NCBI RefSeq assembly: GCF_028330985.1
Contig: NZ_JAQMUE010000067.1
Coordinates: forward strand, 1-45,800
Direction of reading: 5' to 3'
DNA: 45,800 nucleotides
Origin: Roseofilum reptotaenium CS-1145
GTDB lineage: Bacteria > Cyanobacteriota > Cyanobacteriia > Cyanobacteriales > Desertifilaceae
Shown: piece after piece, positions 15,285 through 41,622 of the stretch
Position numbering within the stretch: the first letter of the stretch is position 1
Layout of the letters: every line of letters begins with the position of its first letter
Notes under the pieces: model-generated
Database searches by the model: none
Seen by the model: only the letters and a program-made list of their open reading frames with translations
Told to the model about the DNA's origin: nothing
Program-made: the position numbers and the translations under genes

Positions 15285-15326
15285 AGTAGATACAGCCATT
15301 CATTAGGGCAAAGCGCTGTATCTACT
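15285..15326. repeat. Inverted repeat over the end of the Rieske gene
   Basis: AGTAGATACAGC (15285-15296) and GCTGTATCTACT (15315-15326) pair perfectly around an 18-base loop. The right arm contains the stop of the Rieske gene. No T run follows on the minus strand, so it looks like a 3' stabilising hairpin more than a factor-independent terminator. Confidence 0.6.
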
Positions 15327-15780
15327 GAGCTTTGACTAAAATTAAGTCCCCTTCCTGTTTCACTTCAAACAGGGGTAAGGGGTTTTCCGCAGGAGAAGCT
15401 AAAACTGCGCCATCTAAGTCAAATTGGGAACCGTGACAGGGACAGTCAAATACGTTTTCATCAGCCAACAGTTCTACGGTGCAACCTTGATGGGTACACA
15501 TAGGATTGAGGGCAGTGATGGCTTGGGTTTCTTGATGGCGGAAGATGAGGACGGGTTTGGGAGCGTTGCGTCGGTCTAGAATGGTTCCTTGGGCTTCGAG
15601 TTGGGAGATTGTATCGAGGGCTTGAAACCTATCTTCGCGTATGGAGGTATCAATTTTAGGCGTGTTATTACTGGAGGATATTGGGCGTTTTTCTCCAGAC
15701 TGACAACTGGAGAGGGTGGGGGGGAGGACGCTGACGAGTGCGCCAAGGGTCATCCAATTGATAAAGTAACGGCGTTCCAT
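15322..15780 (-). CDS. Tat-exported Rieske [2Fe-2S] protein
   Basis: A 152-residue Rieske protein. The cluster motifs CTHQGC and CPCHGSQFDLDG are complete, providing two Cys and two His ligands. The N-terminus MERRYFINWMTLGAL is Tat-like (RRxF) and is followed by LSSC, which could be a lipobox, so the folded protein is probably exported and membrane-anchored. I chose the ATG at 15780; the longer frame reads into the CcsA-like gene. The gap to that gene is only ~20 bases, so both are probably on one message. It is too short and differently built to be the usual PetC of the b6f complex. Confidence 0.85.
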   Translation of the reverse strand: MERRYFINWMTLGALVSVLPPTLSSCQSGEKRPISSSNNTPKIDTSIREDRFQALDTISQLEAQGTILDRRNAPKPVLIFRHQETQAITALNPMCTHQGCTVELLADENVFDCPCHGSQFDLDGAVLASPAENPLPLFEVKQEGDLILVKAQ

Positions 15781-15799
15781 AGTAGATGGGAGTTGAATT

Positions 15800-17485
15800 T
15801 TAGGAGAGGACTGGAGATTGCGATTGGTTTTTGAGCATCTGTTGACGCAGGAATACGACCAATACAAACAGGAGATCTAGGGCAATTAAGCTACCGATAA
15901 TCAGTTCTGAGCCTCCGGTACTGAAGCCGTAGCTGTGTAATCCAGTTCCGAGGACAAAATTTACGCCATACCAGGCCATGAGGATAGCATTAAAGCTGAC
16001 AACACTAGCGATCGCCATACCAAAGTTGCCGAGCCAACCGGCTAATCGACCGTGTAGGGGCACGATATAGCACATGAGGGCGATTAAGGCCCAGGTTTCT
16101 TTGGGGTCCCATCCCCAAAACCGTCCCCAGGAAAAGTGGGCCCAAATGCCACCGAGGATAATGCCAGTGGTCAGGAAAAGTACGCCGACTTGGAGGATAG
16201 AATAGTTCCAGCGCGAGAGGCGGTTGATAAAGTCTTTGGCTGCGGGCTTGAATAGGTAAGCGCCCAGGAGCAAATGACCGAAGCCAAAGGCAAGGGCAAA
16301 ACTGGCGTAACCAAGGGTAATGGTAGGCACATGGACACTGAGCCAAAAGTTATCGCGCAGGACGGGAACGAGGGGTTTAATGCTGGGATCGAGGACAGCC
16401 GGGAGGCGATCCCCCAACATCAAGCATAGGATAGATAAGGGTGCAGCGGACAATAGGTAATATTTCGCACGATGCAGGAATTCAAAGGTAACGGCGATCG
16501 CCGCTATTCCCAAACTCACCCAAATCACTGACTCATACATATTCGTCACTGGAGGGCGTTCTGCAATTTGCATCCGCTCCCAAAACCCATATCCATGCAC
16601 CGCTAACCCACTGCAAAATAACCCTAATACTACCCAATAGGCTTGTAACTTTTCCAACTCCAAAGTCACCAACATCACCACGAACCCTACACCATATAAA
16701 ATCCAGGCTTGGGTAAACCAATGCAGTCCATAAAAACGAACTTCTCGCGTTAGTTTTTCCCCAGAAGGATAGACTTGGGGACTTAATGTTATCAGTTGCG
16801 ATTTCAAAGTTGCAACCTGGGCATTTAAATCCGAAGTTAAACCCATTTGTACTGCTTGTTTGATTTCGCCATAGGTTGTTTGCAAGGTCTCGACTTGTTC
16901 CGGCGAATAATATTCAGAAGCCTGAGCAATTCCCAACCATTTGCCTTTCGGATCGCTTGGATGGGGAACAACCGGTAACTGGGTACTGCTAACCGTCTCT
17001 AACATTAGGGCTAAACGGTCTTCTAGAGTTAGCGCTTCCCGTTGATCTCGCGTTAAATCTAGATTCTGCGCTTGAGCTTCATGGGCTTGCAAAACAAAGG
17101 AACCCAAGGGAGACGAAACCAGATCCACGAAAGAAAAATATTTCTGTTCTGGATTGAGTCCCAGTTCAGTTTTTAAGGGTCGATAACTAAACAGGATAAA
17201 GGGTTCTTTGTTCCAGTCTCGGTTATTGAATAAGAGGGAAAGATAGGTATCGAGATAATCGAGCTTTTCTCCGGTTAAGGGTTCATAGCGGAAACTGCCA
17301 TGAATTTGAGTAACTGTTTCTCTGGCAACCGTATCAAGGGGCTTTTTGCGTCCATCCAGTTGTACTGCCAGAGTTTTCAGGGAATCATAACTCGTTTCCG
17401 GACTAGAGATTATTGCTTTCCATGCGGGGAAGAAGCACAGGAGAAGACCTAATGTTAAACCAATGAGAAATTTAATTGGATTCAT
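15800..17485 (-). CDS. Long CcsA/ResC-type cytochrome c biogenesis protein
   Basis: A 561-residue membrane protein that should handle haem for System II cytochrome c assembly. The C-terminal half is CcsA: PVTNMYESVIW, then the tryptophan-rich haem motif WGRFWGWDPKETWAL and the late LGTGLHSYGF histidine. The N-terminal ~240 residues form a large non-cytoplasmic domain after one helix, with LDGRKKPLDTVARETV and EQKYFSFVDLV. This domain is known from the CcsBA-type proteins of bacteria rich in multihaem cytochromes and is absent from the ~350-residue plastid/cyanobacterial CcsA. Its natural partner could be the ResB-like protein at 38954. The Rieske gene follows directly. Confidence 0.85.
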   Translation of the reverse strand: MNPIKFLIGLTLGLLLCFFPAWKAIISSPETSYDSLKTLAVQLDGRKKPLDTVARETVTQIHGSFRYEPLTGEKLDYLDTYLSLLFNNRDWNKEPFILFSYRPLKTELGLNPEQKYFSFVDLVSSPLGSFVLQAHEAQAQNLDLTRDQREALTLEDRLALMLETVSSTQLPVVPHPSDPKGKWLGIAQASEYYSPEQVETLQTTYGEIKQAVQMGLTSDLNAQVATLKSQLITLSPQVYPSGEKLTREVRFYGLHWFTQAWILYGVGFVVMLVTLELEKLQAYWVVLGLFCSGLAVHGYGFWERMQIAERPPVTNMYESVIWVSLGIAAIAVTFEFLHRAKYYLLSAAPLSILCLMLGDRLPAVLDPSIKPLVPVLRDNFWLSVHVPTITLGYASFALAFGFGHLLLGAYLFKPAAKDFINRLSRWNYSILQVGVLFLTTGIILGGIWAHFSWGRFWGWDPKETWALIALMCYIVPLHGRLAGWLGNFGMAIASVVSFNAILMAWYGVNFVLGTGLHSYGFSTGGSELIIGSLIALDLLFVLVVFLRQQMLKNQSQSPVLS

Positions 17486-17708
17486 ACAATGTATAGGCTA
17501 CAGACTGGTGATGTAGGAAGCCTTGAGACATTCCTGATTCCTTAGTGGTAACTGTCTGGGGGGAATTGTTCTGCTCACTGGTAACATCTAGCTATTACCC
17601 TATACTTCTCAGTCCACAATGTTAGCCTTTATGTGATAAAGTGGGAGTCAAAATAAAAATTCACCTATAATTGAGCATAAAAATCAAGATAGTCTCTATA
17701 ATTCATCA

Positions 17709-25667: not shown

Positions 25668-28004
25668 CTAAATGGGGCTTTCAGATTGGCGGTGGGTTTT
25701 CAACTGGGGATTCAACATTTTGAGACCGAAGAAGACACCAACGCTAATCACTACCATACTTAAAAGCCATACACTAGCGAAGGTGGGTTGAACACTCAAT
25801 TGAGTGATTTGATAGAAACTGGTGGCGACGATGTAGGCTAAACCTGTTGTCCATGAAGCAACAAAAATTGTCCATTGCCAGTTGGTTTCCCGGTAAACGG
25901 CTGCGGTGGCAGCGACACAGGGGAAATAGAGCAACACAAATAAGAGATACGCAAAGGCTCCAGCTTTGCCATCAAACCGGCGTACCATGGCTCCAAATGT
26001 CCCTAAAGTAACTTCCTGTTCTTCCGAGGCAATTTCTACATCTGAGGTATCGCCAATGTTAAGACCAATGGGGTCGAGTAAGGTACCGGGAACGTCAGCT
26101 AAGTTAGCGGGAATGGTGGCGAACGCTTCTTGGATACCGCCCCAGAAACTAAAGCCTCCTTCTTCCTCTTCTAATTCGGGATTATCAGTAAGTGCCAATT
26201 GTCCGTAAATGGAATCGAGTGTGCCTACCATGGCTTCTTTAGCAAAGACACCGGTAAAGATTCCCACGGTAGCGGGCCAATTTTCCTGGGTAACGCCCAT
26301 GGGAGCAAAAATGGGAGTTACAGATTGACTGGCAGCGCTTAGGATGGATTGGTCGCTATCTTGATTACCAAATGAACCATCTGTTCCTAAGGAGTTGAGT
26401 AATCCGAGGATGGTGACCATGATAATAATGACTTTTCCGGCTTTCAAGAGAAATGCCCGTAGCCGATCCCAAGTGCGAATCATGACCCCTTTGAATCGAG
26501 GAATATGGTAGGGAGGAAGCTCCATGACAAAGGGAGAAATTTCGCCTTTGAGGATGGTGTTTTTCATCACCAGTCCGGTGAAGATGGCAAAGGCAATACC
26601 GAGGATATAAAGGCCAAAGACAATATTTTGACCGCCCAGGGGAAAGAAGGCAGCCGCAAAGAGGGCGTAAACCGGAAGCCTTGCACCACAGGACATGAAG
26701 GGATTCATGAGAATAGTCATGAGGCGATCGCGGGAATTTTCTAAGGTGCGGGCGGCCATAATTGCGGGTACATTGCAGCCAAAGCCGACTAACATGGGCA
26801 CAAAGGATTTTCCAGGTAAGCCCACAAACCGCATCATCCGATCCATAACAAAGGCGGCTCGTGCCATGTAGCCAGAATCTTCGAGTATCGATAAGAAGAG
26901 GAACATGAAGCCAATAACGGGAATAAATGTGGCGACGGTTTGCACACCACCACCCGCACCGTCAGCTAACAGGGCGATCGCCCATCCGGGGAAGCGGAGG
27001 CTTTCGAGCAGTTGCCCCAATCCGTCTACAAAGATTGTCCCAGCAACGATATCAAAAAAGTCAATAAAGGCACTGCCAACATTGATCGTAAATAGGAACA
27101 TCAGATACATGATGCCTAAGAAAATGGGAATCCCCAGCCAACGGTTGAGGACAATCGCATCGAGCTTATCGCTCATGGACTGACTCACTTCTCCCGTGCG
27201 TTGACTGGCTTCTTGGGTCACGGTTTGAATAAAGCCGTAGCGACTATCGGCAATCAGGATATCGAGATCTTCTCCTAAGACTTGATGAATGCTACGCCGA
27301 TGTTTAGCGATCATTTCCGTAAGCGCTGGAGTAACGAGTTCACCAACTCCCCGTTCATCGTATTGCAGCAAGTTTAGAGCAGTCCAGCGAGGTTCGACGA
27401 TCCGATTGGTCGTGTTTTGAGTTAGGTAAGGGACGATTTCAGCTAAGGCATCTTCGATGACTGCTGGATAAGCAACGTAACTGGCAGGATGGGTTAAGTT
27501 CTCTAGGATGTGACCGACGAGATCGACTAAAGAGCCAATTCCTTCGCGATCGCTGGCAATCAGGGGCAGAACAGGAACACCTAAGCGATCGGCTAAACGC
27601 TCTGCATTAATATCGATACCTCGCTTCTGGGCAATATCGATCATATTCAGAGCGACAACCATCGGCAGGCGCATTTCCATCAACTGAGTCGTCAGATAAA
27701 GATTACGCTCTAGATTGGAGGCATCAATGATATTAATTACCAATTGTGCTTCTCCAGAAAGGAGATAATCTCGCGCCACTAATTCATCCATTCCGGTGGC
27801 ACTTTCTTCGGCATCCAGGGAATAGACCCCTGGCAAGTCTACCAGGGTAATGGTCGCTTGATTAATCTTAAACTGCCCTTCTTTGCGATCGACTGTAACC
27901 CCCGGCCAGTTTCCTGTCCGTTGGTTAGCTCCGGTGAGGGCGTTAAATAGAGTGGTTTTTCCGCAGTTGGGATTACCAATTAAGGCAACAATGGGTTTGA
28001 GCAT
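25668..28004 (-). CDS. feoB: Ferrous iron transporter FeoB
   Basis: A 778-residue Fe2+ transporter. The N-terminal G-domain has G1 GNPNCGKTTLFNALTG, the switch NWPGVTVDRKEG, G3 DLPGVYSL and G4 NMID; a GDI-like linker follows. The membrane part has the two Gate motifs with Cys (FGCNVPAIMAARTLEN and MSCGARLPVY, VFAKEAMVGTLDS). Ferrous iron is taken from the periplasm into the cytoplasm. The product lengths and motifs look intact. FeoA is upstream and FeoC downstream, so the operon is feoA-feoB-feoC, expected to be iron-controlled. Confidence 0.95.
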   Translation of the reverse strand: MLKPIVALIGNPNCGKTTLFNALTGANQRTGNWPGVTVDRKEGQFKINQATITLVDLPGVYSLDAEESATGMDELVARDYLLSGEAQLVINIIDASNLERNLYLTTQLMEMRLPMVVALNMIDIAQKRGIDINAERLADRLGVPVLPLIASDREGIGSLVDLVGHILENLTHPASYVAYPAVIEDALAEIVPYLTQNTTNRIVEPRWTALNLLQYDERGVGELVTPALTEMIAKHRRSIHQVLGEDLDILIADSRYGFIQTVTQEASQRTGEVSQSMSDKLDAIVLNRWLGIPIFLGIMYLMFLFTINVGSAFIDFFDIVAGTIFVDGLGQLLESLRFPGWAIALLADGAGGGVQTVATFIPVIGFMFLFLSILEDSGYMARAAFVMDRMMRFVGLPGKSFVPMLVGFGCNVPAIMAARTLENSRDRLMTILMNPFMSCGARLPVYALFAAAFFPLGGQNIVFGLYILGIAFAIFTGLVMKNTILKGEISPFVMELPPYHIPRFKGVMIRTWDRLRAFLLKAGKVIIIMVTILGLLNSLGTDGSFGNQDSDQSILSAASQSVTPIFAPMGVTQENWPATVGIFTGVFAKEAMVGTLDSIYGQLALTDNPELEEEEGGFSFWGGIQEAFATIPANLADVPGTLLDPIGLNIGDTSDVEIASEEQEVTLGTFGAMVRRFDGKAGAFAYLLFVLLYFPCVAATAAVYRETNWQWTIFVASWTTGLAYIVATSFYQITQLSVQPTFASVWLLSMVVISVGVFFGLKMLNPQLKTHRQSESPI

Positions 28005-28122
28005 GGCTAGGGTTTTAATGTGGGGGAATGGGGGAAGAGGGAGATAGGGGGATAGGGGGCATCTATTGCCATGACCTATGACCCATTACCTATTACCAGC
28101 GCGAAGCTCGAAGTAAAAAGCG

Positions 28123-28737
28123 CTATAAACGTTCTACTTGTAAGGCTTCGGCTTCTTGTTTGCGTACAGTTAAATGAAAGCCTCGTACTTGAATTTCAAC
28201 TGGATCGCCTAGGGGGGCTACGCGAATCACGGTAAATTCTGTACTTGGAGTGAGGCCCATGGAGAGGAGTTTGCTTTTGTAGGCGCGATGGGTCTTTTCA
28301 TAGCCGAGAATGCGCCCTTTTGTGCCTACAGCTAGGTCTCCTAAATGGAGTGTGGAGGTTGAGTTTTCCATATCTGAGTGTGGATGTAAGGATAGATTTG
28401 TGTCTGTGACTAAGACTCGTGAGGCTAGACCGGCACCTAAGCCTAAGCGGTTATCGGCGATCGCTACTACCACCGAGCCACTCCCTTGGTGACTGAGAAT
28501 TTGCAACTGAGATCCTGGGGTAATTCCCATGGCTAAAAGGCGAGATATACCCCCTTTGCCTTGAAACCCCTTAACCCATACCTGCTGTCCAGGTTGTGCT
28601 TCACTGAGCAAAAAGGCATTAACGTCTAGGCGTTCTGATGCGGCTTCCTCTTGACTATCTAGGCTCGAACTGTCTCCTATGTAGTCGTAGGAGCTGTCGT
28701 CATCATGCTGTCCTGACCCTGAAGGGTGATGGTTCAT
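28123..28737 (-). CDS. feoA: FeoA with two tandem FeoA domains
   Basis: A 204-residue protein with two FeoA (SH3-like) domains in one chain. The first contains GQQVWVKGFQGKGGISRLLAMGITPGS; the second GTKGRILGYEK and KLLSMGLTPSTEFTVIRVAPLGDPVEIQVRG. An acidic, Ser-rich leader precedes them. The usual FeoA is ~75-80 residues, so this is a duplication or fusion. I chose the ATG at 28737 because GAGGAAA lies just upstream; in-frame ATGs at 28788 and 28761 have no such site. The stop codon falls in a TATAGCGC tip of a repeat element. FeoA assists FeoB at the inner membrane face. Confidence 0.88.
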   Translation of the reverse strand: MNHHPSGSGQHDDDSSYDYIGDSSSLDSQEEAASERLDVNAFLLSEAQPGQQVWVKGFQGKGGISRLLAMGITPGSQLQILSHQGSGSVVVAIADNRLGLGAGLASRVLVTDTNLSLHPHSDMENSTSTLHLGDLAVGTKGRILGYEKTHRAYKSKLLSMGLTPSTEFTVIRVAPLGDPVEIQVRGFHLTVRKQEAEALQVERL

Positions 28738-29052
28738 TTTTTTTCCTCTACGTCTTTTCATCCAACCAACAACTTGAGGGCGATTCATTGGAATTGCTAA
28801 TTATTTTCATTTAAATGCCATCGACAGTCTACTCTAATCCCTAATAAATAGCGGAAGGATTAAAAAAGATTTAACCTTTAGTTCAAAAAAGTTCTTAATC
28901 TATTTTTAATCTTCACTTCTGTAATATTTCGCAAAATCCAGATAAATATTAATTTTTAATTTAGAGAGCTATTTATTTCTTCACTGTGAAGTATTATCAA
29001 AGATGGCTCATTTAAATTCTCGCGACAATAAACCCCAAAATAGTTAAAAATC
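28738..29052. promoter_or_regulatory. Divergent promoter region feoA / HMA-like gene
   Basis: These ~315 bases hold no gene. The sequence is very AT-rich, especially 28850-28990. Near feoA, AATGAAAATAATTAGC (minus strand, about 28795-28811) is a loose match to a Fur-type box, which would suit an iron-uptake operon, but the match is weak. Confidence 0.3.
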
Positions 29053-31858: not shown

Positions 31859-32008
31859 GGAATAGGGAATAGGGGATACGCCATCGCTGTATCTCCATGT
31901 CGCTGTCGCTCTCTACTTTAAGATTGTTAACAATAGTTCTCATTAGTTGCAAAAATTCTGCTAGGCTATGGGCAGAAATCAACCTTTCTACATGGTCTTC
32001 TAACCCCT

Positions 32009-32251
32009 ATGTCTCTGATTCATCTGGAAAAGTCCATCGTGACTTTTCATCTCAAGGAAATTCTCGAAGATGGACACGGTAATCATCCCCTATTCTGGGT
32101 TGGATTAGGCGTTTTAGTTTTAGCCCCTACTCTGTTACCCGATCCTCAACCGGTGAATCAACGGTTGAATAAAGAGGGAAGAACAGGAAAAACAGAAATG
32201 TCTTTATCTGAGTGGGTGGCTCAGGCACAGAAAAATAGAGTCGATGCTTGA
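32009..32251 (+). CDS. Small membrane protein downstream of the P-type ATPase
   Basis: An 80-residue protein with one hydrophobic helix in FWVGLGVLVLAPTLLP, preceded by FHLKEILEDGHGNHP and followed by a polar tail. I do not recognise a named family, but similar one-helix proteins sit with HMA-type ATPases and DUF5132 genes. It runs in the same direction as the ATPase, ~150 bases downstream, and ends before a strong hairpin. Confidence 0.5.
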   Translation: MSLIHLEKSIVTFHLKEILEDGHGNHPLFWVGLGVLVLAPTLLPDPQPVNQRLNKEGRTGKTEMSLSEWVAQAQKNRVDA

Positions 32252-32289
32252 CAGTTAACGGTGACTGTCTACAACTCTCAAGTTAAAAG

Positions 32290-32312
32290 ACAAGGGGCCC
32301 CTAGCCCCTTGT
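32290..32312. terminator. Bidirectional terminator hairpin
   Basis: ACAAGGGGC and GCCCCTTGT pair perfectly around CCCTA, followed by TTT on the plus strand and, after TGTC, TTTT on the minus strand. It lies between convergent genes and fits a shared terminator. Confidence 0.8.
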
Positions 32313-32381
32313 TTTGGTGAGTTTCTCCGAGTTTACAGCACCATCAAAACGATCCAAGAGGGCTGTAACTGAACCGTTAGG

Positions 32382-32672
32382 TTAGGAATTTGGGAGGGAT
32401 TTGTTCTCAGTCTGGGCATGAACTTCCGCTTTGGCTTCAGCCGCAATATCCGCGAGGCTTTCGGCCGTTTCCGCTAGGGTGGATTTGGTCTTTTCATACC
32501 AAGTAACTCCCGTTTTAATGGTGGTTTTCAAAACCGGTTTGACCAACGGCAAAATGACAGGTGCAAGGGCAACGGTAGCGACTCCGACGACGATCGCCTT
32601 GGTGTTGGGGTTACGGGTGAGTTCGGCGACTCGCGATCTTAGTCCCATGCCTTCTTGATGCATCATTACCAT
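32382..32672 (-). CDS. DUF5132-type protein
   Basis: A 96-residue protein: a hydrophobic, glycine-poor helix (AIVVGVATVALAPVILPLVKPV) and a long amphipathic helix rich in Ala/Glu (KSTLAETAESLADIAAEAKAEV). This is the DUF5132 layout, seen beside HMA_2-containing P-type ATPases. It is convergent with the small gene at 32009, sharing a terminator. A function in assembling or regulating the pump at the membrane is inferred only from neighbours. Confidence 0.65.
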   Translation of the reverse strand: MVMMHQEGMGLRSRVAELTRNPNTKAIVVGVATVALAPVILPLVKPVLKTTIKTGVTWYEKTKSTLAETAESLADIAAEAKAEVHAQTENKSLPNS

Positions 32673-32841
32673 AATTGAAGATCCTGTTGCTAAGTTGAAA
32701 TAAAATGTAGCTCACATTCTCATCTATTATACCCTAATTGAGAAAGAAAAACCAGACCAATCAGAGGAGTAAGACGTTACTTAACGTTTCTGATGATCTG
32801 GGATATCCTGTAATTGATGTTGTGCCAACCTTGAAGTAGCC

Positions 32842-33636
32842 TTGAGTCAACCTAAACTCTTGCACAGTGGCAATCCTTTGTATCGACCCCTAACGGCTAT
32901 CCTGTTGGGGGGACAGGCGATCGCCCATATCCTAGCCGGAAAAATTCATCGCCGAAATACGATGGAGCAGATGATTAACGTGGGGCCAGCATCGGTGGCG
33001 ATCTCTGTGATGACGGCGGTTAGCGTCGGCTTCGTGTTCACCATTCAAGTTGCCCGTGAATTCATCAACTTTGGAGCCACTACTGCGGTTGGGGGCGTTT
33101 TGGCGATCGCCCTAGCCAGAGAACTCTCCCCCGTCCTGACTGCCGTCGTTGTTGCTGGGCGCGTCAGTTCCGCCTTTGCTGCCGAAATTGGAACCATGCA
33201 AGTGACCGAACAAATCGATGCCCTCTACATGCTCAAAACCGATCCCATCGATTACCTCGTCATTCCTCGATTAATCGCCTGTTGCTTAATGGTTCCCCTT
33301 CTGAGCCTCCTGTCCCTTGTCATGGGGATTGCCTCCGGTTTATTTATTGCCCAAGCTCAATACCGCATCCCCTACTCTGTCTTCCTCTCCTCCGTACAAA
33401 GCTTCATGACTCCTTGGGATGTCTTTAGCTCTGTGATTAAAGCCTTTATTTTTGGAGCCTTAATTTCTGTCATTGGCTGTAGTTGGGGACTCACCACCAC
33501 TGGAGGTGCAAAAGGGGTGGGTAAATCCACGACTACCGCTGTAGTTATTTCTCTGCTCTCGATCTTCATGACTGATTTTGTCCTCTCTTGGATTATGTTC
33601 CAAGGTATGGGTACATCCTCAATTCAAGGGGTATAA
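32842..33636 (+). CDS. MlaE-type permease of a lipid ABC transporter
   Basis: A 264-residue inner-membrane permease of the MlaE/YrbE/TGD1 family. The family segments GPASVAISVMTAVSVGFVFT, LARELSPVLTAVVVAGRVSSAFAAEIGTM and EQIDALYML are clear. It should move lipids between membranes together with an MlaF ATPase and an MCE (MlaD) protein; neither gene is in the window. The start is a TTG at 32842; a stop shortly upstream excludes longer forms. Confidence 0.9.
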   Translation: MSQPKLLHSGNPLYRPLTAILLGGQAIAHILAGKIHRRNTMEQMINVGPASVAISVMTAVSVGFVFTIQVAREFINFGATTAVGGVLAIALARELSPVLTAVVVAGRVSSAFAAEIGTMQVTEQIDALYMLKTDPIDYLVIPRLIACCLMVPLLSLLSLVMGIASGLFIAQAQYRIPYSVFLSSVQSFMTPWDVFSSVIKAFIFGALISVIGCSWGLTTTGGAKGVGKSTTTAVVISLLSIFMTDFVLSWIMFQGMGTSSIQGV

Positions 33637-34122
33637 CCCTTCTCTAGAGCAACGATTTAGTCCATAAATCATGTTATCGGATTGGCTTTAAGCCATCTTG
33701 AGAACTTGATAAAAGATAGGGGCAAATTCGAGGGAGATGCTATTTACAAATCCTCAAAAATGCATTTTTTGCATATAGTCTATGTTTTTATTTCAATAAG
33801 TATTTTTTTCCGTAGTTTATCTTACAGAATATCCTAGATAATCTGGATATATACAAGTTATATCTTGGACAAAAAAGAATTGAAATTGTCTATAGCAAGG
33901 AATAAGTTAGTGAGAACAAGCAATTGACTTAGAGTCAATTGTTATCAGCTAATGGGACAGTTTTCTATAAGTCCTAAGTATTTCTTAATTGGCTATAGCA
34001 ATCCTCTCTTCTATGGAGTACAGCTTGAAGCCCTAGACTCCAAGCAACATCAGCTATTGCCTGTTGCCTATTGCCAGCGCGAAGCGCTATATCACCCAGA
34101 CTGCATAAGGAGAACACCAAAA
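33637..34122. promoter_or_regulatory. Long leader region of the globin/cytochrome cluster
   Basis: These ~485 bases hold no supported gene. The first part (33740-33960) is AT-rich with several TAT-rich stretches suited to promoters. A MITE-like element occupies 33994-34092, directly before the AAGGAGAA site of the globin gene, so the element now forms the leader of the cluster. The open frame starting at 33952 reads through the element and is not a real N-terminus. Confidence 0.55.
33994..34092. mobile_element. MITE-like element, copy 2
   Basis: TATAGCAATCCTC, CTATGGAGTACAGCTTGAAG and GAAGCGCTATAT match copy 1 at 22551-22660 nearly base for base, with heptamer units (TTGCCTA) inside. Termini resemble those of the IS630-type element at 40605. 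Confidence 0.75.
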
Positions 34123-34554
34123 ATGTCACTAAAAGTCGAACTTCTGGAAGAGAGCTTTGAAAAAGTGAAGCCAGAAGCGAATGAATTTGTTGAGAGTTTC
34201 TATACATATTTGTTTACGGATAATCCGGACGCTAAACCGTTGTTTGAGCATACGGATATGAAGAAACAAAAGCAAATGCTTTTGCAATCTTTGGTCTTTA
34301 CAGTAGAAAATTTGAAAAAGCCAGAAGAGTTAAGTAATGCACTTAAAGGCTTAGGGGCACGCCACGTTAAATATGGAGCCCTTCCTGCCCATTATCCCCT
34401 AGTTGGTGGGGCACTCTTGAAAACTTTTGAACAATACTTAGGGGATGATTGGACTCCTGAAGTCAAACAAGCTTGGATTGATGCCTATCAAGCGATTACC
34501 GATCTGATGCTTTCCGGTGCAGATTACGATAAAGCGGAAACCCAACTTTCTTAA
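34123..34554 (+). CDS. Single-domain bacterial globin
   Basis: A 143-residue globin of the flavohaemoglobin/Vitreoscilla type without a reductase domain. The probable distal side has Tyr/Phe in FVESFYTYLF and Gln in KKQKQMLLQSL; the proximal His is in GARHVKYGALPAHYPLVGGALL (F8 His of RHVKYGA). Globins of this kind bind O2 and NO. The ATG at 34123 follows AAGGAGAACACC. It is 3 bases upstream of the five-haem cytochrome gene, so it is translated with the cytochromes; a role with NO or O2 in the same pathway is inferred. Confidence 0.9.
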   Translation: MSLKVELLEESFEKVKPEANEFVESFYTYLFTDNPDAKPLFEHTDMKKQKQMLLQSLVFTVENLKKPEELSNALKGLGARHVKYGALPAHYPLVGGALLKTFEQYLGDDWTPEVKQAWIDAYQAITDLMLSGADYDKAETQLS

Positions 34555-34557
34555 GTC

Positions 34558-35205
34558 ATGACCAGCAATTTGCAGCGGTTTCCTCTTCTGAAAAATATTC
34601 TTCAAGTCAAGACAGCTATTATTGCAGTGGTCGTTTTGTTACTGATTTGGGGAATTGCTGCGTTTGCCTTAGATCAACGTCAAATCTTTCTTCCGGGAGT
34701 GACATCAGACGGGCACACCTTAATTGAGGCTTCTTGTAGTTCCTGTCATGAAGGATTTAAACCGGTCAGTAATGAAACCTGTATGCGTTGTCATGAAGCA
34801 GAGTTAGTCAGTGATATTCACGGCCCGAAAAAGTTTCGCGATCCCCGTTGGGCAGAATACCTCAGTAATTTAGATGTGTTAACTTGCACTGCTTGTCATG
34901 CGGAGCATGTCCATATGTTTGGTCGCGGGGTTCACCTGAAACCAGATTTATGTATGGCTTGTCATGAAGGAGTCATTACTGGAGATATTCCCAGCCATAA
35001 AGGGTTTGAACCAGATGGCTGTTGGACAGCAGGATGTCATAATTTTCACGATCATCGCTCGATTTCAACGGGTTTTTTGCGGGAAAACTTGAATCAACCC
35101 ATCCTATTACCGAAGCCAGAAATGCCGAATTTAGAAGTCACTTTAACCGAAAGTAAACCCCCTAAACCTGATTTGGGTGAGGAGTTTCTGGAGGGGAGAG
35201 GATGA
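34558..35205 (+). CDS. Membrane-anchored multihaem cytochrome c (four CXXCH, one CX4CH)
   Basis: A 215-residue protein with one N-terminal helix (TAIIAVVVLLLIWGIAAFAL) and a soluble domain outside the cytoplasm. It has haem sites CSSCH, CMRCH, CTACH and CMACH and, near residue 155, CWTAGCH, a CX4CH spacing. Further histidines (HNFHDH, HAEHVH) can serve as distal ligands. I cannot place it in a named family; the anchor plus five haems recalls quinol-oxidising NapC/NrfH-type proteins by function only. It overlaps the next cytochrome gene by ATGA. The C-terminus is proline-rich. Confidence 0.88.
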   Translation: MTSNLQRFPLLKNILQVKTAIIAVVVLLLIWGIAAFALDQRQIFLPGVTSDGHTLIEASCSSCHEGFKPVSNETCMRCHEAELVSDIHGPKKFRDPRWAEYLSNLDVLTCTACHAEHVHMFGRGVHLKPDLCMACHEGVITGDIPSHKGFEPDGCWTAGCHNFHDHRSISTGFLRENLNQPILLPKPEMPNLEVTLTESKPPKPDLGEEFLEGRG

Positions 35206-35996
35206 GAAGAAACAGCATTTTTCTGATGGTATGGCTATGGTCTGTGGTGATATTGTGGGGTTGTAATGGGGCGATCGCCTCCCCAATCTCCGCCGAGCGA
35301 GTAACAGAAATTACTCAGCAATGGGAAAACAGTGTTCATGCTCTGGCGGATGTCAACTGTTCCACTTGTCATCAAGAGAGCCAAACGAAAACCTTGGTGG
35401 TGCGTCCTAACCAAGAAAGTTGCCAAAGTTGCCATCAGCAACAGGTGGATACATTTCTGCTCGGTAAACATGGTATTCGCACGGCTGAAGGACTGTCTCC
35501 TTTAACGCCAAAGATGGCGCACTTACCGATGAAAGCCTCTGCTCAGGAACAGTTCATGGGGTGCAATACCTGCCATGATGTCCATCAACCTGACACGTTT
35601 AAGGCTTCTGTAGACTCCTGTCTGCAATGCCATGATGATACCCATTCTCTCAATTATGGGGACTCGAAACATGGTTCTCTGTTTGCCGCATCGGTTAGAC
35701 TGCCTCGCCCGAGTCCGGATCTGGTGACCTGTGCAACCTGCCATTTACCTCGCACAGTCAATGAAAATACCAATTCGGTGTTTGTGAATCACAATAACAC
35801 TTACACTCTGCTTCCGCGCGATCGCATGGTGAAGGATGTTTGTATGAATTGTCACGGCTTGGAATATTCCTACAACAGCATCTTTGATGATCAGTTGATT
35901 GAGGGCAATTTTCACCATCCCCCTCAGCAAGATTTAGACACGCTGAAATTGGTTAGAGCGCTAGAAGAAAAGCGAACCGCTTCAGACTCTGAATAA
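35202..35996 (+). CDS. Six-haem exported cytochrome c
   Basis: A 264-residue protein with a signal peptide ending LWGCNGAIA, possibly a lipobox. Six CXXCH sites follow: CSTCH, CQSCH, CNTCH, CLQCH, CATCH and CMNCH. The late segment VKDVCMNCHGLEYSYNSIFD resembles the last haem region of hydroxylamine-oxidoreductase-like multihaem proteins, and GDSKHGSLF fits the SKHG-type distal ligand of such proteins; no cross-linked Tyr can be claimed. It is probably the terminal reductase or electron store of the cluster. Translation is coupled to the membrane cytochrome upstream. Confidence 0.85.
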   Translation: MRRNSIFLMVWLWSVVILWGCNGAIASPISAERVTEITQQWENSVHALADVNCSTCHQESQTKTLVVRPNQESCQSCHQQQVDTFLLGKHGIRTAEGLSPLTPKMAHLPMKASAQEQFMGCNTCHDVHQPDTFKASVDSCLQCHDDTHSLNYGDSKHGSLFAASVRLPRPSPDLVTCATCHLPRTVNENTNSVFVNHNNTYTLLPRDRMVKDVCMNCHGLEYSYNSIFDDQLIEGNFHHPPQQDLDTLKLVRALEEKRTASDSE

Positions 35997-36026
35997 CAGA
36001 TTTGTTCACCTAATGGAAAACCGACT

Positions 36027-36683
36027 ATGCTTATCCTCAGAACTTGGATACGTTCACTTAAACTGAAAACCATTAGCTTATTCGTTTTAGCGACAGCTAT
36101 TTGTCTGACTGCTGTTTCTTGTGCTGGAGGAAACAGCAATAGTTCGACTCAAACCAGTGGTATTGATCCTGCTCTTGTCGTTGATTATATCCATGCTGTG
36201 GCGGAATCTGACCGTACTGCCTACACCAAGCATGTGGTTAACCGGCTGAAAACACTCGAAGGACAAGAGAAATCCAATGGAGTCGTTCCCGCAGAAGCAA
36301 CGGAAGCTTGGCAAGAAGCCGATGGTATTCCTTTACCCGCACAAATGTTCCGTTTAGGTGCAGAACTGGCTTCTGAACAAGGTACATTCACGTATGGTTT
36401 GATTTCTCCTTGGAATATTAATGATGCTCAAGCTCCTAGAGGTGAGTTTGAAGAAGTGGGGATGCAAACCGTTATTGATACGGGTGAACCCTATAAAGAT
36501 TATCGAGAAATTTCTGGTCAACAATATTACTCTGCTATTTATCCCGATGTGGCGATCGCCGAAGCCTGCGTCACCTGTCACAACGATCATCCCATCCATA
36601 AAGAACGTTATCCCGATAAAATCTTTGAACTGGGAGATGTCATGGGCGGTGTCGTAATTAACTTACCCCTTGAAGGAACTTAA
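36027..36683 (+). CDS. DUF3365 (Tll0287-like) c-haem lipoprotein
   Basis: A 218-residue protein with an N-terminal hydrophobic segment ending in LTAVSCAGG, a lipobox. The rest is a DUF3365 domain with a PAS-like fold; the haem site CVTCHNDHP is near the C-terminus. Tll0287 of Thermosynechococcus has this build, with covalent haem c and a proposed sensor or redox role. Position between the cytochromes and the membrane cytochrome b suggests it takes part in, or senses, this redox pathway. The gap to the previous gene is 30 bases. Confidence 0.85.
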   Translation: MLILRTWIRSLKLKTISLFVLATAICLTAVSCAGGNSNSSTQTSGIDPALVVDYIHAVAESDRTAYTKHVVNRLKTLEGQEKSNGVVPAEATEAWQEADGIPLPAQMFRLGAELASEQGTFTYGLISPWNINDAQAPRGEFEEVGMQTVIDTGEPYKDYREISGQQYYSAIYPDVAIAEACVTCHNDHPIHKERYPDKIFELGDVMGGVVINLPLEGT

Positions 36684-36766
36684 TCCATTTCTTTTTTTTA
36701 GGTTTGATTTAGGGAGGAATGCAACGTTTGTATTCTCTCCCTTAATTTCAATGTAGCTTATCCACA

Positions 36767-37369
36767 ATGAAACCCAAGTTTTCCACCCTCATCCTCTTAA
36801 CCGTAATTTGTGCTATTCTGCTCACCCCTTTTGTTTTCAGTCCTAACTATATCCCCGTCCTCCGCTTAAATGACTTTGATCTCTATTTAGCCTTTCAGAG
36901 CGAACTCTATAAGCAAATTACGGGATATTTATCCCTATCTTTTGTGCTACTAGAAATGGCGCTAACCCTCCGTAAACGAGGAAGAAGCTGGAAAGTAAAA
37001 ATCAAGGTTCCGGGCAGTATTCAGCTCTGGAGAAGCCTACATGTTTTTCTAGGCATTGCCTTAGTGGGTAGTACATTTATCCATACTATCGGGGTGCGAG
37101 GTTTGAATTTTAATGCCATTTTCCTATGGGTCTTTTTCTTGGTCACCTTATCCGCTTTAGTCGGGGTAGTTGCTGAAACTGGAATCATAGAATCTTCCCA
37201 GCGTTATTTCCGATTTAGTTTATCTTCTACTCCTGGCAATACCGGCATTTCTAAAGGAGTTTTGATTCGCAATTTACGAGGAATTTGGCTAACCAGTCAT
37301 ATCATTTTAGTCAGCATGTTTTTAGTTATGCTAGTCTTTCATATCATCATTGCCTACTATTATCAATAA
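36767..37369 (+). CDS. Small membrane protein, probable di-haem cytochrome b
   Basis: A 200-residue protein with five hydrophobic helices. Four helix histidines form two pairs: LHVFLGIAL and TFIHTIGV in helix 3, TSHIILV and VFHIIIAYY in helix 5. The spacing within each helix is ~13-14 residues, as in di-haem cytochromes b561 or ferric-reductase-like proteins that pass electrons across the membrane. I cannot name the family. Its stop overlaps the ATG of the thioredoxin gene. As part of the cluster it would link quinol or cytoplasmic donors to the exported cytochromes. Confidence 0.65.
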   Translation: MKPKFSTLILLTVICAILLTPFVFSPNYIPVLRLNDFDLYLAFQSELYKQITGYLSLSFVLLEMALTLRKRGRSWKVKIKVPGSIQLWRSLHVFLGIALVGSTFIHTIGVRGLNFNAIFLWVFFLVTLSALVGVVAETGIIESSQRYFRFSLSSTPGNTGISKGVLIRNLRGIWLTSHIILVSMFLVMLVFHIIIAYYYQ

Positions 37370-37854
37370 TGCCGATTGAGACGATCAAACAAGTTATTTT
37401 GGGATTAGTATTGATGGCCGTATTTGCTTACTTCTTTCTGCTACCCAAATCTCCTGCGTTACTGCCCTCTAGTTTAACCGGCTTGCAGCAACTTAAAGCC
37501 AGTGTCCAAATTGCTGTTCCCTATCGTATTGCGCTCAATAATTCTTTACCGACAGTGATTGAATTTTATGCCGATTGGTGTACTACCTGTCAAGCTATGG
37601 CTCCTACAGTTTGGCAGATTGAAAAAGAGTATGAACATAAAATAAACTGGGTGATGATTAATATCGATCGCCCAGAATATACCCATCTTATTGAAGAATA
37701 TAACGTGCAAGGTGTCCCTCAGTTTATTTTCTTCAATACTCAACAAGTTGTTCAGGAAATTCTAATTGAAAAAATTCCTTCATCTCTACTGGTTGAACAA
37801 GTTCGTTTATTACTAAATTTTGATGATACATCACCCAATCAGGAGCTGAGATAA
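37369..37854 (+). CDS. HCF164/TxlA-like membrane thioredoxin
   Basis: A 161-residue protein with one N-terminal helix and a thioredoxin domain facing outside the cytoplasm. The active site is YADWCTTCQAMAP and the cis-Pro loop GVPQF. Proteins of this type (HCF164 in plastids) keep apocytochrome cysteines reduced for haem attachment. The ATG at 37369 overlaps the TAA of the cytochrome b-like gene; the frame before it is a shadow. It is probably a dedicated helper for the many CXXCH sites encoded next to it. Confidence 0.88.
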   Translation: MPIETIKQVILGLVLMAVFAYFFLLPKSPALLPSSLTGLQQLKASVQIAVPYRIALNNSLPTVIEFYADWCTTCQAMAPTVWQIEKEYEHKINWVMINIDRPEYTHLIEEYNVQGVPQFIFFNTQQVVQEILIEKIPSSLLVEQVRLLLNFDDTSPNQELR

Positions 37855-37873
37855 ACTTGACTAATCCATGGGA

Positions 37874-38800
37874 TTAATGGGGAACATTTAAGGCTCCTGT
37901 GTGTCTTAACCAATCTTTTTGATCGTCAGTCAATCCTTGGGCATCCGTAAATGTTGCTCCCATGAATTCGCAGTTAATGAATTGAACATCTTTCCAAATC
38001 GTCCGTTCTAAATTGGCATCCTGGAAACTGGTTTCAACCAACTTGACTTCATCGAATAAAGCGGATTCTAGATCGGTAGACAAGAATGAACAGTGTTCTA
38101 AAACACTATTGGTAAAGGATGCATTGATACATTTAGCTCCTAAGATCTCTGTATCTTTCATCTCAAGAGATCGAAAATCAACTTCACACAAATTTGTAGA
38201 TACAAGACTAGAGTTATGTACCTTGCTCCTTAGAAAAATGGATCGATGTAAATTGGCTTTTTCTAAATTAGCATCTATCAAGAAACTGTCACTTAAATCT
38301 GCATTTTCTAAAATAGCCGAGTGCAAAACTGATTCAGTAAGATTACACTGTGTCAACTGAGAAGAAGTCAGATTAACTTGGGTTAAATTGGCAGAATTTA
38401 AATTAGCTTTCTGAGCTTTAATTTTTCTCAGATCTGACTTATAAAAATCAGCATCAACACCATTCAAGTGATCTAAAGTTGCACCATAAAGTTTCGTATA
38501 ACGAGCATCAATCGATCGGCAATTGGCACTGTTTAAACAAGCTCCATTGAGTTCAGCACGGAATAATTTAGCACACACTAAATTAGTTTCGGTCAAATTG
38601 GCTAACATCAAGTTGGCTTCAGAAAAGTTTGTCCCTTGACAAAAGGCTCTAGATAAATTTGCCCCCCGTAGATAGGCTTGACTAAAATCACCATCATCAA
38701 GGATACAACCCTCGAGATTAATCCGGCTTAATTCAGCCCTAACAAAAGATTCTCCGTCCTGGAGTTGGTTGATAACTTCTTCGGCTGTGAATAAACTCAT
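37874..38800 (-). CDS. Pentapeptide repeat protein
   Basis: A 308-residue protein made of about 45 A(N/D)LxX-type repeats (for example AYLRGANLSRAFCQGTNFSE), forming a right-handed quadrilateral beta helix. The start MSLFTAEEVINQLQDGESF is the usual short leader. It has no signal peptide or enzymatic domain. It lies on the opposite strand inside the cytochrome cluster, separating the ResB gene from the rest; I see no functional tie. Such proteins are abundant in cyanobacteria. Confidence 0.9.
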   Translation of the reverse strand: MSLFTAEEVINQLQDGESFVRAELSRINLEGCILDDGDFSQAYLRGANLSRAFCQGTNFSEANLMLANLTETNLVCAKLFRAELNGACLNSANCRSIDARYTKLYGATLDHLNGVDADFYKSDLRKIKAQKANLNSANLTQVNLTSSQLTQCNLTESVLHSAILENADLSDSFLIDANLEKANLHRSIFLRSKVHNSSLVSTNLCEVDFRSLEMKDTEILGAKCINASFTNSVLEHCSFLSTDLESALFDEVKLVETSFQDANLERTIWKDVQFINCEFMGATFTDAQGLTDDQKDWLRHTGALNVPH

Positions 38801-38953
38801 AAAATTAAGGTAATAGATGACAAAACTTAACTTCTAGCTTATCGCTTAATTGCCCGTTTTTGCTACTTCTGTCATCCTGAATACAACCGGATCTTCTCAA
38901 ACCAGTAAGGTAGACAATAAGAAAACCCTTTGATCATTCTTGAAACTGTTAAG

Positions 38954-40363
38954 ATGAATACGCCTTTGATCCGGTTCTTTGGCTCGATCCAGTTTGCTGT
39001 TCCCCTTCTGGCTAGTATTGTTGCTATTTTAATCGGAGCGACAATTTATGAGTCTCAAGTGGGCTCGACTGTCGTACAACATCTGATTTATAAAAGTCCT
39101 TGGTTTGGGATCTTGATGTTCCTGCTGGCAGTCAATTTATTCATTTCGGCACTCACGCGCTATCCTTGGCGAGGCTTTCGTAAAGCGGGATTTGCTTTAA
39201 CTCATATTGGACTGGTTTTGATTATTGTAGGCTCGGCGGGAGTTATTCACTTGAGTTTGGAGGGAATGCTACCGTTAAGAGAAGATCTAGCGGGCAATAA
39301 TCAGATTCGGGTTGAGGGAGATTTATTAGAAGTGATGACTCCTGAAGGCGAAACTGAACAACGGGATATTTTTATCCGTCCTGATGGCTCTATTTCTCCT
39401 TCTTCAGTTCTCGGACTTTCTTTGTTAGGTTATGCGGAAAATACGGTGAAAACCGTTCACTTTAAGGAAGGAGGAGCCACGGATAACGTGGCTTTGAAGG
39501 TGCGGTTAACCAGTGCGCGAATGTCACAAGAGGTGGAACAATGGTTAGGGTTTGCACCCCTACCTTATCGTAGGGTAAGTTTGGGGCCGGCTGAGTTGGT
39601 GCTGACGGTTGTGGAGAGTGAGGAAGCAGCGCAAGAGAAGGTTGCGACACTGGCTGATACTTCAGAGGGGAATTATTTTCAGGCGATCGCCACTTCATCC
39701 GGTAAACTTTATTATGCTACCCATTCCTCTCAAGGCTTCCAATCCGGTATTCTAAAACTGAATGAACCGATTGCACTCGGTTGGGCAGACTTTGAGATTA
39801 CCCTAGAAGAGCAGCTAACCCATGCTCAGATTGACCGTCAAATTGTACCGGTTGGCGATCGCACCGTGCAAGGCACTCCCGCTATCCTAGTCAAAACAGA
39901 AACAGGAACCCAAACCTGGCTACCTTGGGGAGAACCTACCACTATTCCTGTACCCGATGGGGAAATTTTAGCAGCATTTACGCCTAAACTTTTTTCCCTT
40001 CCCTTTCAAGTGGCGTTGCAAGACTTTATTGTAGAGCGCAATGAAGGTTCTGATAGCGTCGCCATGTGGACAAGCAAAATCCAAATTCAAGACCCTCATC
40101 AGCATATTAGCAGCGATCGCACCGTCTGGATGAACCACCCCACCTGGTATCAGGGATGGAAAATCGCTCAAGCCTCCTGGAACCCTGGAGATTTACGCCA
40201 ATCTACCCTACAAGTGAAACGCGAACCTCTGTGGATAACCCTACTCACTTGGACAGGTTCAGCCCTTGTCGTTGTCGGTATTGGTACAATGTTCTATGGT
40301 AAGGCCATTCACAAAAGCCTCACCCATTATCCATCACCCGTCATTAATTTAGGAGAAAATTAA
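38954..40363 (+). CDS. ResB/Ccs1-type cytochrome c biogenesis protein
   Basis: A ~469-residue protein: three N-terminal helices (RFFGSIQFAVPLLASIVAIL, then SPWFGILMFLLAVNLFISAL, then GFALTHIGLVLIIVGSAGVI), a large exported domain and one C-terminal helix. The FGSIQFAVPLL start and the HIG histidine region are typical of ResB. With a CcsA partner it forms the System II haem lyase. Cyanobacteria have a standard Ccs1; this one, next to multihaem cytochromes, looks like a second dedicated copy whose partner may be the long CcsA-like protein at 15800. The ATG at 38954 fits better than the TTG at 38930. Confidence 0.85.
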   Translation: MNTPLIRFFGSIQFAVPLLASIVAILIGATIYESQVGSTVVQHLIYKSPWFGILMFLLAVNLFISALTRYPWRGFRKAGFALTHIGLVLIIVGSAGVIHLSLEGMLPLREDLAGNNQIRVEGDLLEVMTPEGETEQRDIFIRPDGSISPSSVLGLSLLGYAENTVKTVHFKEGGATDNVALKVRLTSARMSQEVEQWLGFAPLPYRRVSLGPAELVLTVVESEEAAQEKVATLADTSEGNYFQAIATSSGKLYYATHSSQGFQSGILKLNEPIALGWADFEITLEEQLTHAQIDRQIVPVGDRTVQGTPAILVKTETGTQTWLPWGEPTTIPVPDGEILAAFTPKLFSLPFQVALQDFIVERNEGSDSVAMWTSKIQIQDPHQHISSDRTVWMNHPTWYQGWKIAQASWNPGDLRQSTLQVKREPLWITLLTWTGSALVVVGIGTMFYGKAIHKSLTHYPSPVINLGEN

Positions 40364-40391
40364 GCAACTTTTACTGTTACTCTTGGGTTGT

Positions 40392-40607: not shown

Positions 40608-41622
40608 CCTTTCTCGAATTAATGAGGTACAGTAGAATGGGAGAGTAACAAATGGGTAAATGAAAGCATACTCAATTGATCTACGTCAGAAAATAATTGA
40701 CACCTACTATAACCAACCGATTTCACAGAGGCAATTAGCTACAAGATTTTGTGTGGCTTTGAGTTTGGTGCAGAAATTGCTTAAACAATATCGATTGACT
40801 GGTAATGTAGCTCCCCAACCTCATAGAGGAGGAGTAAAACTGAAACTCAAGGAAGAATAATTAATTATACTTGGTGAATTAATTGAAGCAAATAATGGTG
40901 CAACGCTCGATGAACTCTGTATTCTGCTGGAGAAGAAAACTCGAGTAAGGGTGAGCCAAGCGACCATGGGAAGAATGACAAAAAGACTGAATTTTACCTG
41001 GAAAAAAACACTATTTCCGTCAGACAAAGACAGTGAGAGAGTACAAAAGCTCAGATGTGAATTTAGGGAAGAAATCAGACAGATAAAGGCTGAGGACATG
41101 AGCTTCATAGATGAATCAGGGGTGAATTTAGGATGAGTGCGCCGATATGCTCGTTCACAAAAAGGAAAAAGGGCGCTGGGAGCTAAACCGAGTAAACGAG
41201 GTAGAAATGTGTCGATAATAGCGGCAATATCTCTACAAGGTAAGGTTACCCACGTCAATTTGTTAGGGGGCACAGATGGCTTAACACTTGAAGCATTTAT
41301 TATCCGAAAATTAGTGCCGAAACTATGGAAAGGGGCAGCGGTGTTCATGGATAATTATAGTATTCATAAGGGAGAAGAAGTGGAAAATGCCATTGATGGA
41401 GCAGGAGCTAGGCTAATCTATTTACCTCCCTATTCTCCCGATTTTTCTCCCCTTGAAAATTGCTGGTCAAAGGTGAAGCAAATTCTCCGTAGTGTCGGAG
41501 CTAGAACTCACAAGGCATTAGATAGTGCCATCGAAGAAGCCTTCAGTCAAATTTCTAAGCAAGATTTTCATAACTGGTTTACACATTGTTGTTATTGTAC
41601 CTCATCTATTTGAGAAACGCTA
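40605..41622 (+). mobile_element. IS630-type insertion sequence
   Basis: A ~1018-bp element flanked by TA on both sides. The tips TAGCCTTTCTC and, inverted, TAGCGTTTCTC match over ~28 bases including AATGAGGTACA-like inner parts (left AATTAATGAGGTAC, right, inverted, AATAGATGAGGTAC). It has one transposase gene, itself broken by two nonsense codons. It cuts an MNT gene on the left and ends in the stop codon of the HD-domain relic on the right. Confidence 0.88.
40660..41613 (+). pseudogene. IS630-type transposase with two in-frame stop codons
   Basis: The whole 317-codon gene is in one frame, broken by TAA at 40858-40860 and TGA at 41134-41136. The N-terminal HTH (QPISQRQLATRFCVALSLVQKLL) and the DDE parts (FIDESGVNLG, VFMDNYSIHKG, LPPYSPDFSPLENCWSKVKQ) are otherwise well kept. 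No frameshift is visible, so the damage looks recent. The catalytic Asp, Asp and Glu are still encoded, but a full protein would need read-through of both stops. Confidence 0.88.

Follow-up and report, generated by a model that had tools for sequence, protein, structure and literature searches.

A recurrent globin and multihaem cytochrome gene cluster in cyanobacteria, probably encoding a membrane electron-transfer complex and the proteins that attach its haems

The stretch analysed here (the window) is the entire 45.8 kb contig NZ_JAQMUE010000067.1 of the cyanobacterium Roseofilum reptotaenium CS-1145, whose genome comprises 5.67 Mb in 113 contigs. Six co-directional genes span positions 34123 to 37854 and encode a globin (GLB), two multihaem c cytochromes (C5 and C6), a c-haem lipoprotein (TLL), a four-His membrane protein (B4H) and a thioredoxin (TRX); the C5 and C6 genes overlap by 4 bases. 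A divergent pentapeptide-repeat gene (PPR) separates them from a gene for a second, divergent ResB-like protein (RESB), and genes for a second CcsA-type protein (CCSA) and a Rieske protein (RSK) were also found on the contig (Table 1). Every gene named in an earlier reading of this DNA, here called the original prediction, was recovered in its place. Its inventory had missed CCSA, RSK and the tandem nature of related globins.

Table 1. Genes of the cluster and associated genes, with positions in the window
Gene product	Position	Strand	Features
GLB, globin, cytosolic	34123..34554	+	PF00042 4.3e-19; 143 amino acids
C5, membrane-anchored pentahaem c cytochrome	34558..35205	+	four CXXCH and one CX4CH, N-terminal hydrophobic segment
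C6, exported hexahaem c cytochrome	35202..35996	+	six CXXCH
TLL, Tll0287-like (DUF3365, sCache_heme) c-haem lipoprotein	36027..36683	+	PF11845 4.3e-15
B4H, four-His membrane protein, DUF4405-like	36767..37369	+	two HX13H pairs
TRX, membrane-anchored thioredoxin	37369..37854	+	PF00085 8.3e-18; WCTTC; N-terminal hydrophobic segment
PPR, pentapeptide-repeat protein, divergent gene	37874..38800	-	PF00805 8.4e-41
RESB, second divergent ResB/Ccs1-like protein	38954..40363	+	PF05140 1.9e-12
CCSA, second CcsA-type haem-attachment protein, long N-terminal part	15800..17485	-	PF01578 1.4e-30
RSK, small exported Rieske [2Fe-2S] protein	15322..15780	-	PF00355 4.8e-14

The window was compared with 36 loci from other genomes, giving 37 loci in all, six of which (window counted) are from the window's genus. 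The loci were collected by similarity to C5 or C6, so that the presence of these two genes is by construction while that of the others is not. Clustering of the open reading frames (ORFs) placed globin, C5, C6, TLL and B4H in this order on one strand in 33 of the 37 loci, and a tblastn check added L098. The order is thus present in all 34 loci that are long enough; the other three (L020, L025 and L049) end at contig ends. The same plan was seen in two loci fetched later, L117 and, as far as its contig end, L115. A chance neighbourhood was rejected, the recurrence of the gene order across loci being far beyond chance. Further members among the 37 loci are TRX (26), the pentapeptide gene (23), the divergent ResB (21), CcsA (19), the Rieske protein (15) and a ChaN-type haem-binding protein (6, the family being assigned from one member).

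The claim that the genes form a conserved unit is therefore borne out. The original prediction had also staked itself beforehand on whether the cytochromes occur elsewhere with the globin, DUF3365 or cytochrome b genes, and across the 34 loci, the window's counted, such company recurs. It further required that the cytochromes should not belong to an operon already described; no description of the cluster, of a second haem-attachment set or of tandem bacterial globins was found among the papers listed from the open-licence literature searched (titles, abstract starts and passages). A transmembrane electron route, as proposed, is probable, and we judge it very likely that the genes encode a membrane electron-transfer complex together with a cytochrome c assembly set of its own.

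In a survey of 388 genomes of the order, a C5 profile matched 42, or 39 after three weak matches were removed. A single-protein search of a phylum-wide draw of 386 genomes was positive in four, the window's genome counted. With 39/388 in the order and 4/386 in the phylum draw, the cluster appears patchy but widespread. Hosts include Roseofilum, Spirulina, Prochloron, Xenococcus, Halomicronema and Symploca, and several of the hosts are mat-forming or benthic. The window's C6 is 95% identical to its counterpart in the metagenome-assembled genome UBA2566, and 89% and 87% identical to those of Roseofilum halophilum and R. acuticapitatum. Outside the cyanobacteria, 14 C6-like loci (L026–L039, several of them short) gave no match to the globin, TLL, B4H, TRX or ResB at E ≤ 0.01.

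Both cytochromes carry invariant His residues besides those of their haem motifs. The five haem motifs of C5 and six further His residues are invariant in 36 of 36 sequences, two more His being nearly so, and PF14537 and PF22113 were matched by all 17 members scanned (E ≤ 0.01). The six CXXCH motifs of C6 and six further His are invariant in 37 of 37, and PF14537 was matched by 18 of 18 members. Since the further invariant His of C6 equal its haems in number, each haem could be bis-His ligated, and the protein looks like a wire. The AlphaFold2 model of C6 was poor, with a predicted local distance difference test score (pLDDT) of 41, and PDB-sequence profile searches with TLL, C5 and B4H gave nothing useful.

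An HAO- or NrfA-type enzyme, named for comparison in the original prediction, was not supported. C6 has six haems with an invariant His for each, and CXXCK is absent from all 37 C6 and 36 C5 sequences, although the missing CXXCK does not by itself speak against NrfA forms that carry CXXCH there instead. Membership of the HAO and octahaem reductase families was rejected, since all 37 C6 sequences have six CXXCH rather than eight and the PDB matches are partial only, to an HAO-like chain (6h5l, 1.2e-7) and an octahaem nitrite reductase (3sxq, 1.7e-4). PF02335 was matched by 2 of 18 C6 members (E ≤ 0.001). The NrfHA type was rejected on the lack of CXXCK in either cytochrome and of a NapC/NirT (PF03264) match to C5, among 17 members at E ≤ 0.01 and for the window's member at E ≤ 0.1. 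The decahaem feature of MtrCAB was not found either: among 647 ORFs of the 37 loci, none other than these cytochromes contains two or more CXXCH.

Wire-like cytochromes would also suit an electron outlet for mats in darkness or at low O2, with plastoquinol drained to a periplasmic or extracellular acceptor (a metal, an organic compound or a sulphur compound) and the globin serving only to buffer O2. Weak matches to MtrC/MtrF domains and the DmsE family point the same way, as do the habitats of several host genera. Nevertheless, no outer multihaem partner is encoded nearby and a terminal reductase was not recognised in the cluster, which leaves such an outlet doubtful. The reverse, oxidation of an external donor (hydroxylamine, NO or sulphide) with electrons entering the quinone pool, draws on the partial resemblance of C6 to 6h5l and 3sxq and on the fact that sequence cannot tell the direction of flow. 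With matches that cover C6 only in part, six haems and no open-site motif, an electron input is unlikely.

B4H is the putative membrane carrier of the complex. H92, H106, H178 and H192 are present in 37 of 37 sequences; they make up two HX13H pairs, an arrangement that would fit a stack of two b haems within a membrane. Scanned at E ≤ 1, 15 of 18 members matched DUF4405 (PF14358), the best at 7e-6; the window's member did not. Its AlphaFold2 model has five long helices at low confidence (pLDDT 68), and Foldseek gave no match with E ≤ 0.001. Haem b binding is reported as demonstrated for a DUF4405 protein in PMC11334425. From its residues, B4H is probably a di-haem b cytochrome of DUF4405-like type.

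TLL has a lipobox-like N-terminus, a PF11845 match in 15 of 15 members scanned and a CXXCH motif in 36 of 36. Between the lipobox region and this motif Cys is absent in all 36, so that no axial Cys is available. Among 30 PF11845 homologues from relatives, a stand-alone clade (L132–L137 and L147) keeps the axial Cys in 7 of 7, and two other short ORFs lacking an output domain, L130 and L144, are also devoid of it. In the tree the TLL clade joins L138–L144 (support 88/88), five of which share the CXXCHNxHP motif of TLL. An adenylate/guanylate cyclase domain is present in six of these seven; five of the six also resemble the HNOBA (haem NO binding associated) model over its C-terminal part, above cut-off in four cases. 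According to preprint PMC12889525, a signalling sCache_heme member without Cys binds nitric oxide (NO) tightly and a Cys-bearing stand-alone member binds it weakly. The TLL haem is predicted to be open and NO-reactive.

Among the cyclase-linked relatives, L138–L143 have the PF11845 c-haem domain fused to a nucleotide cyclase, with an HNOBA-like linker in five of the six, and could possibly be an extracytoplasmic NO-responsive cyclase family in cyanobacteria.

The proximity of TLL to cyclase-fused sCache_heme domains also raises redox or NO sensing, with TLL and the cytochromes as an extracytoplasmic sensor whose state the globin or the pentapeptide protein would detect. For a sensor, eleven c haems besides that of TLL are a large number, and among gene families present in at least four loci no kinase, cyclase or regulator was recognised from the translations, which makes a sensory role quite unlikely.

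The globin would lie on the cytosolic side. Its best PDB match is 3s1i (Hemoglobin-like flavoprotein, 1.3e-23), which we take to be Hell's Gate globin I. Across 62 globin domains, H81 and L53 are conserved in 62, Q49 in 61 and Y27 in 60; by alignment, Y27, Q49, L53 and H81 presumably correspond to helix positions B10, E7, E11 and F8. The best NCBIfam match was NO-inducible flavohemoprotein (1.4e-22), at 80 bits and below its cut-off of 432. Judged by these residues, the distal pocket is of the flavohaemoglobin (NO-dioxygenase) type, and the globin plausibly handles O2 or NO, as had been proposed. A truncated globin (PF01152) was not matched in the host genome. The wider globin family was found in 140 of the 388 genomes (E ≤ 1e-20), including all 39 with C5.

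The globin of the window has one domain, and tandem forms are common among its relatives. The loci contain 41 globin ORFs: 25 with a single domain (one of them truncated by the end of its contig), 14 with two, one with four and one with five; three-domain globins occur in L115 and L116. The five-domain protein is a single ORF of 784 amino acids (L094:9767-12121) in which domains 2 to 5 are nearly identical, and the four-domain protein is a single ORF of 647 amino acids (L090:6440-8383). In three loci a second, more divergent globin gene, 47–48% identical to the window's globin, sits between B4H and TRX (L024:10582-11112, L020:4072-4599 and L117:4831-5361).

Globins fused to pentapeptide repeats were seen in other cyanobacteria, with two globin domains (L111:5692-7677), four (L112:4984-8109) or one (L113:5399-6850), and the stretches fetched around them contained no multihaem ORF. 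The fusions hint at a place for the divergent pentapeptide gene in the system, and PPR is possibly associated with the cluster.

A last rival, in which the tandem globins would store or chaperone haem for supply to the dedicated CcsA/ResB set, is very unlikely: it would account for one to five globins per protein, for the invariant haem-binding His (62/62) and for the ChaN-type protein of 6/37 loci, but storage needs no conserved ligand-binding distal pocket and the globin is frequent in genomes without the cytochromes.

On other contigs the host genome has its canonical ResB (220 bits) and CcsA (243 bits), for which reason a housekeeping role for the cluster's ResB/CcsA pair was judged unlikely. 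Of the 39 genomes with C5, 36 have the divergent ResB, against 7 of the 349 that lack C5, relatedness among genomes being uncontrolled in these counts. The dedicated helpers claimed in the original prediction are thus upheld, by a ResB that is a second copy and tracks the cytochromes. At 151 bits, the NCBIfam CcsB equivalog threshold (187.6) was not reached. TRX is probably the apocytochrome thiol reductant, and from their family matches RESB, CCSA and TRX would attach haem to C5, C6 and TLL.

Several relatives have ResB and CcsA side by side, and in many the Rieske gene follows CcsA. In the window, ResB and CcsA are about 21 kb apart in opposite orientation. Synteny with L040 (95.8% over 8.5 kb; window 15773-17486 and 31908-40377) breaks off at roughly 17.5 and 40.4 kb. 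Compared with L040, the window has its CcsA end inverted, and a transposase gene (41137-41613, DDE_3 1.6e-26) lies near the break. CcsA and the Rieske gene were overlooked by the original prediction because this rearrangement had displaced both from ResB. Genes for ferrous iron uptake, FeoB and FeoA, are located at 25668-28788, about 5 kb upstream of the cluster.

Two of the seven genomes with the divergent ResB and no C5 were inspected. G020 has an apparently decayed cluster (L109:8624-17871) with ResB, CcsA in two ORFs, Rieske, ChaN, thioredoxin and a B4H that is shortened at its N-terminal end and adjoins a transposase gene; this stretch gave no globin, C5, C6 or TLL match. In G024, ResB, CcsA and Rieske are together and the cytochromes are absent.

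From the observed gene order, haem motifs, candidate ligands and co-occurrence with the second ResB, we infer haem binding, the direction of flow, a quinol donor, an NO ligand and the mechanism of each step, as follows. B4H, with two b haems, would pass electrons through the membrane or out of it, plastoquinol being the probable donor. C5, with its anchor and five haems, and the exported hexahaem C6 would form a haem wire. The c haem of TLL, the only one with its usual sixth ligand missing, is the likely site at which a small ligand meets the chain, most probably NO or another nitrogen oxide. On the cytosolic side, globins with an NO-dioxygenase-type pocket would remove NO or bind O2. TRX, RESB and CCSA would build the c haems, and the Rieske protein may be an optional carrier.

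The link to NO is drawn from two indirect hints, the globin pocket and a Cys-less TLL near cyclase-linked domains, and several observations weigh against it. No catalytic subunit of a known N-oxide enzyme was found in the cluster. GLB consists of 143 amino acids with a globin match only and has no FAD/NAD reductase domain, and its family is also present in 101 of the 349 genomes without C5. NO synthase was found in 25 of 291 genomes of the order, none of which is among the 39 cluster genomes; the 291 may include only part of the 39, with the six of the window's genus among them, all negative. The grouping of TLL with the cyclase-linked domains is tentative, being not strongly supported and subject to a long-branch warning from the tree tool, and the HNOBA match is restricted to the linker beside the cyclase and absent from TLL. 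Invariant His residues of TLL (H56, H188 and H191; H69 in 35/36) could act as the sixth ligand and close the site. PMC12889525 reports that a Cys-to-Ala change alone did not give a stand-alone member slow NO release, and sees members of the stand-alone type in redox roles, not in NO roles. Taken as a whole, an electron-transfer complex that assembles its own haems and is linked to NO is a tentative proposal. Its most specific form, an NO-processing complex of oxygenic phototrophs with cytosolic globins, an outside Cys-less sCache_heme lipoprotein and 12 c and 2 b haems, tied to plastoquinone and self-assembling its haems, is somewhat improbable.

Anaerobic respirers are the best-known hosts of multihaem c cytochromes. 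The cluster suggests an electron-transfer or gas-handling system of a kind not so far linked to oxygen-producing photosynthetic bacteria. If the complex exists as proposed, about one tenth of the sampled genomes of the order (39/388) would have an unrecognised electron route beside the photosynthetic chain. The cluster also places single-domain globins of cyanobacteria in a setting open to experiment. The tandem globins of bacteria, with as many as five domains, would themselves be a new protein architecture, and TLL would be a naturally occurring counterexample to the proposed view of stand-alone sCache_heme proteins as redox proteins with Cys ligation.

Each component of the cluster fits or resembles a known family. 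Like flavohaemoglobins and single-domain globins such as 3s1i, GLB has the globin fold, a proximal His, Tyr B10, Gln E7 and Leu E11; unlike flavohaemoglobins, it has no reductase domain, its relatives reach five tandem domains and it holds a fixed position in a cytochrome cluster. The assembly genes resemble System II cytochrome c maturation (Ccs/Res) in their ResB-like and CcsA-like proteins (PF05140 and PF01578, over cut-off) and membrane thioredoxin, but they form a second, cluster-linked set beside a canonical ResB and CcsA, and their CcsA has a long N-terminal part. By composition, the cluster is similar to the quinol-to-multihaem complexes of NrfH/NapC type, in which a membrane anchor or b haems are joined to a multihaem c chain. 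Geobacter Cbc is another complex of similar composition. The cluster differs from the NrfH/NapC complexes in that C5 is not NapC/NirT by Pfam, NrfA is absent, and globin and sCache_heme proteins are included. With the Tll0287/sCache_heme family, as described in PMC12889525, TLL shares a PF11845 domain with CXXCH in a stand-alone lipoprotein; it departs from the stand-alone type in its missing axial Cys (36/36), its nearest relatives, which are cyclase-fused, and its place in a multihaem operon. B4H shares with the DUF4405-like membrane cytochromes, as described in PMC11334425, four conserved His, presumably two haems b and extracytosolic redox partners. Those cytochromes have six long helices, whereas the low-confidence model of B4H has five, and their partners are flavinylated proteins rather than the c-haem proteins found here. 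The combination of components appears to be new, judged from the open-licence papers listed.

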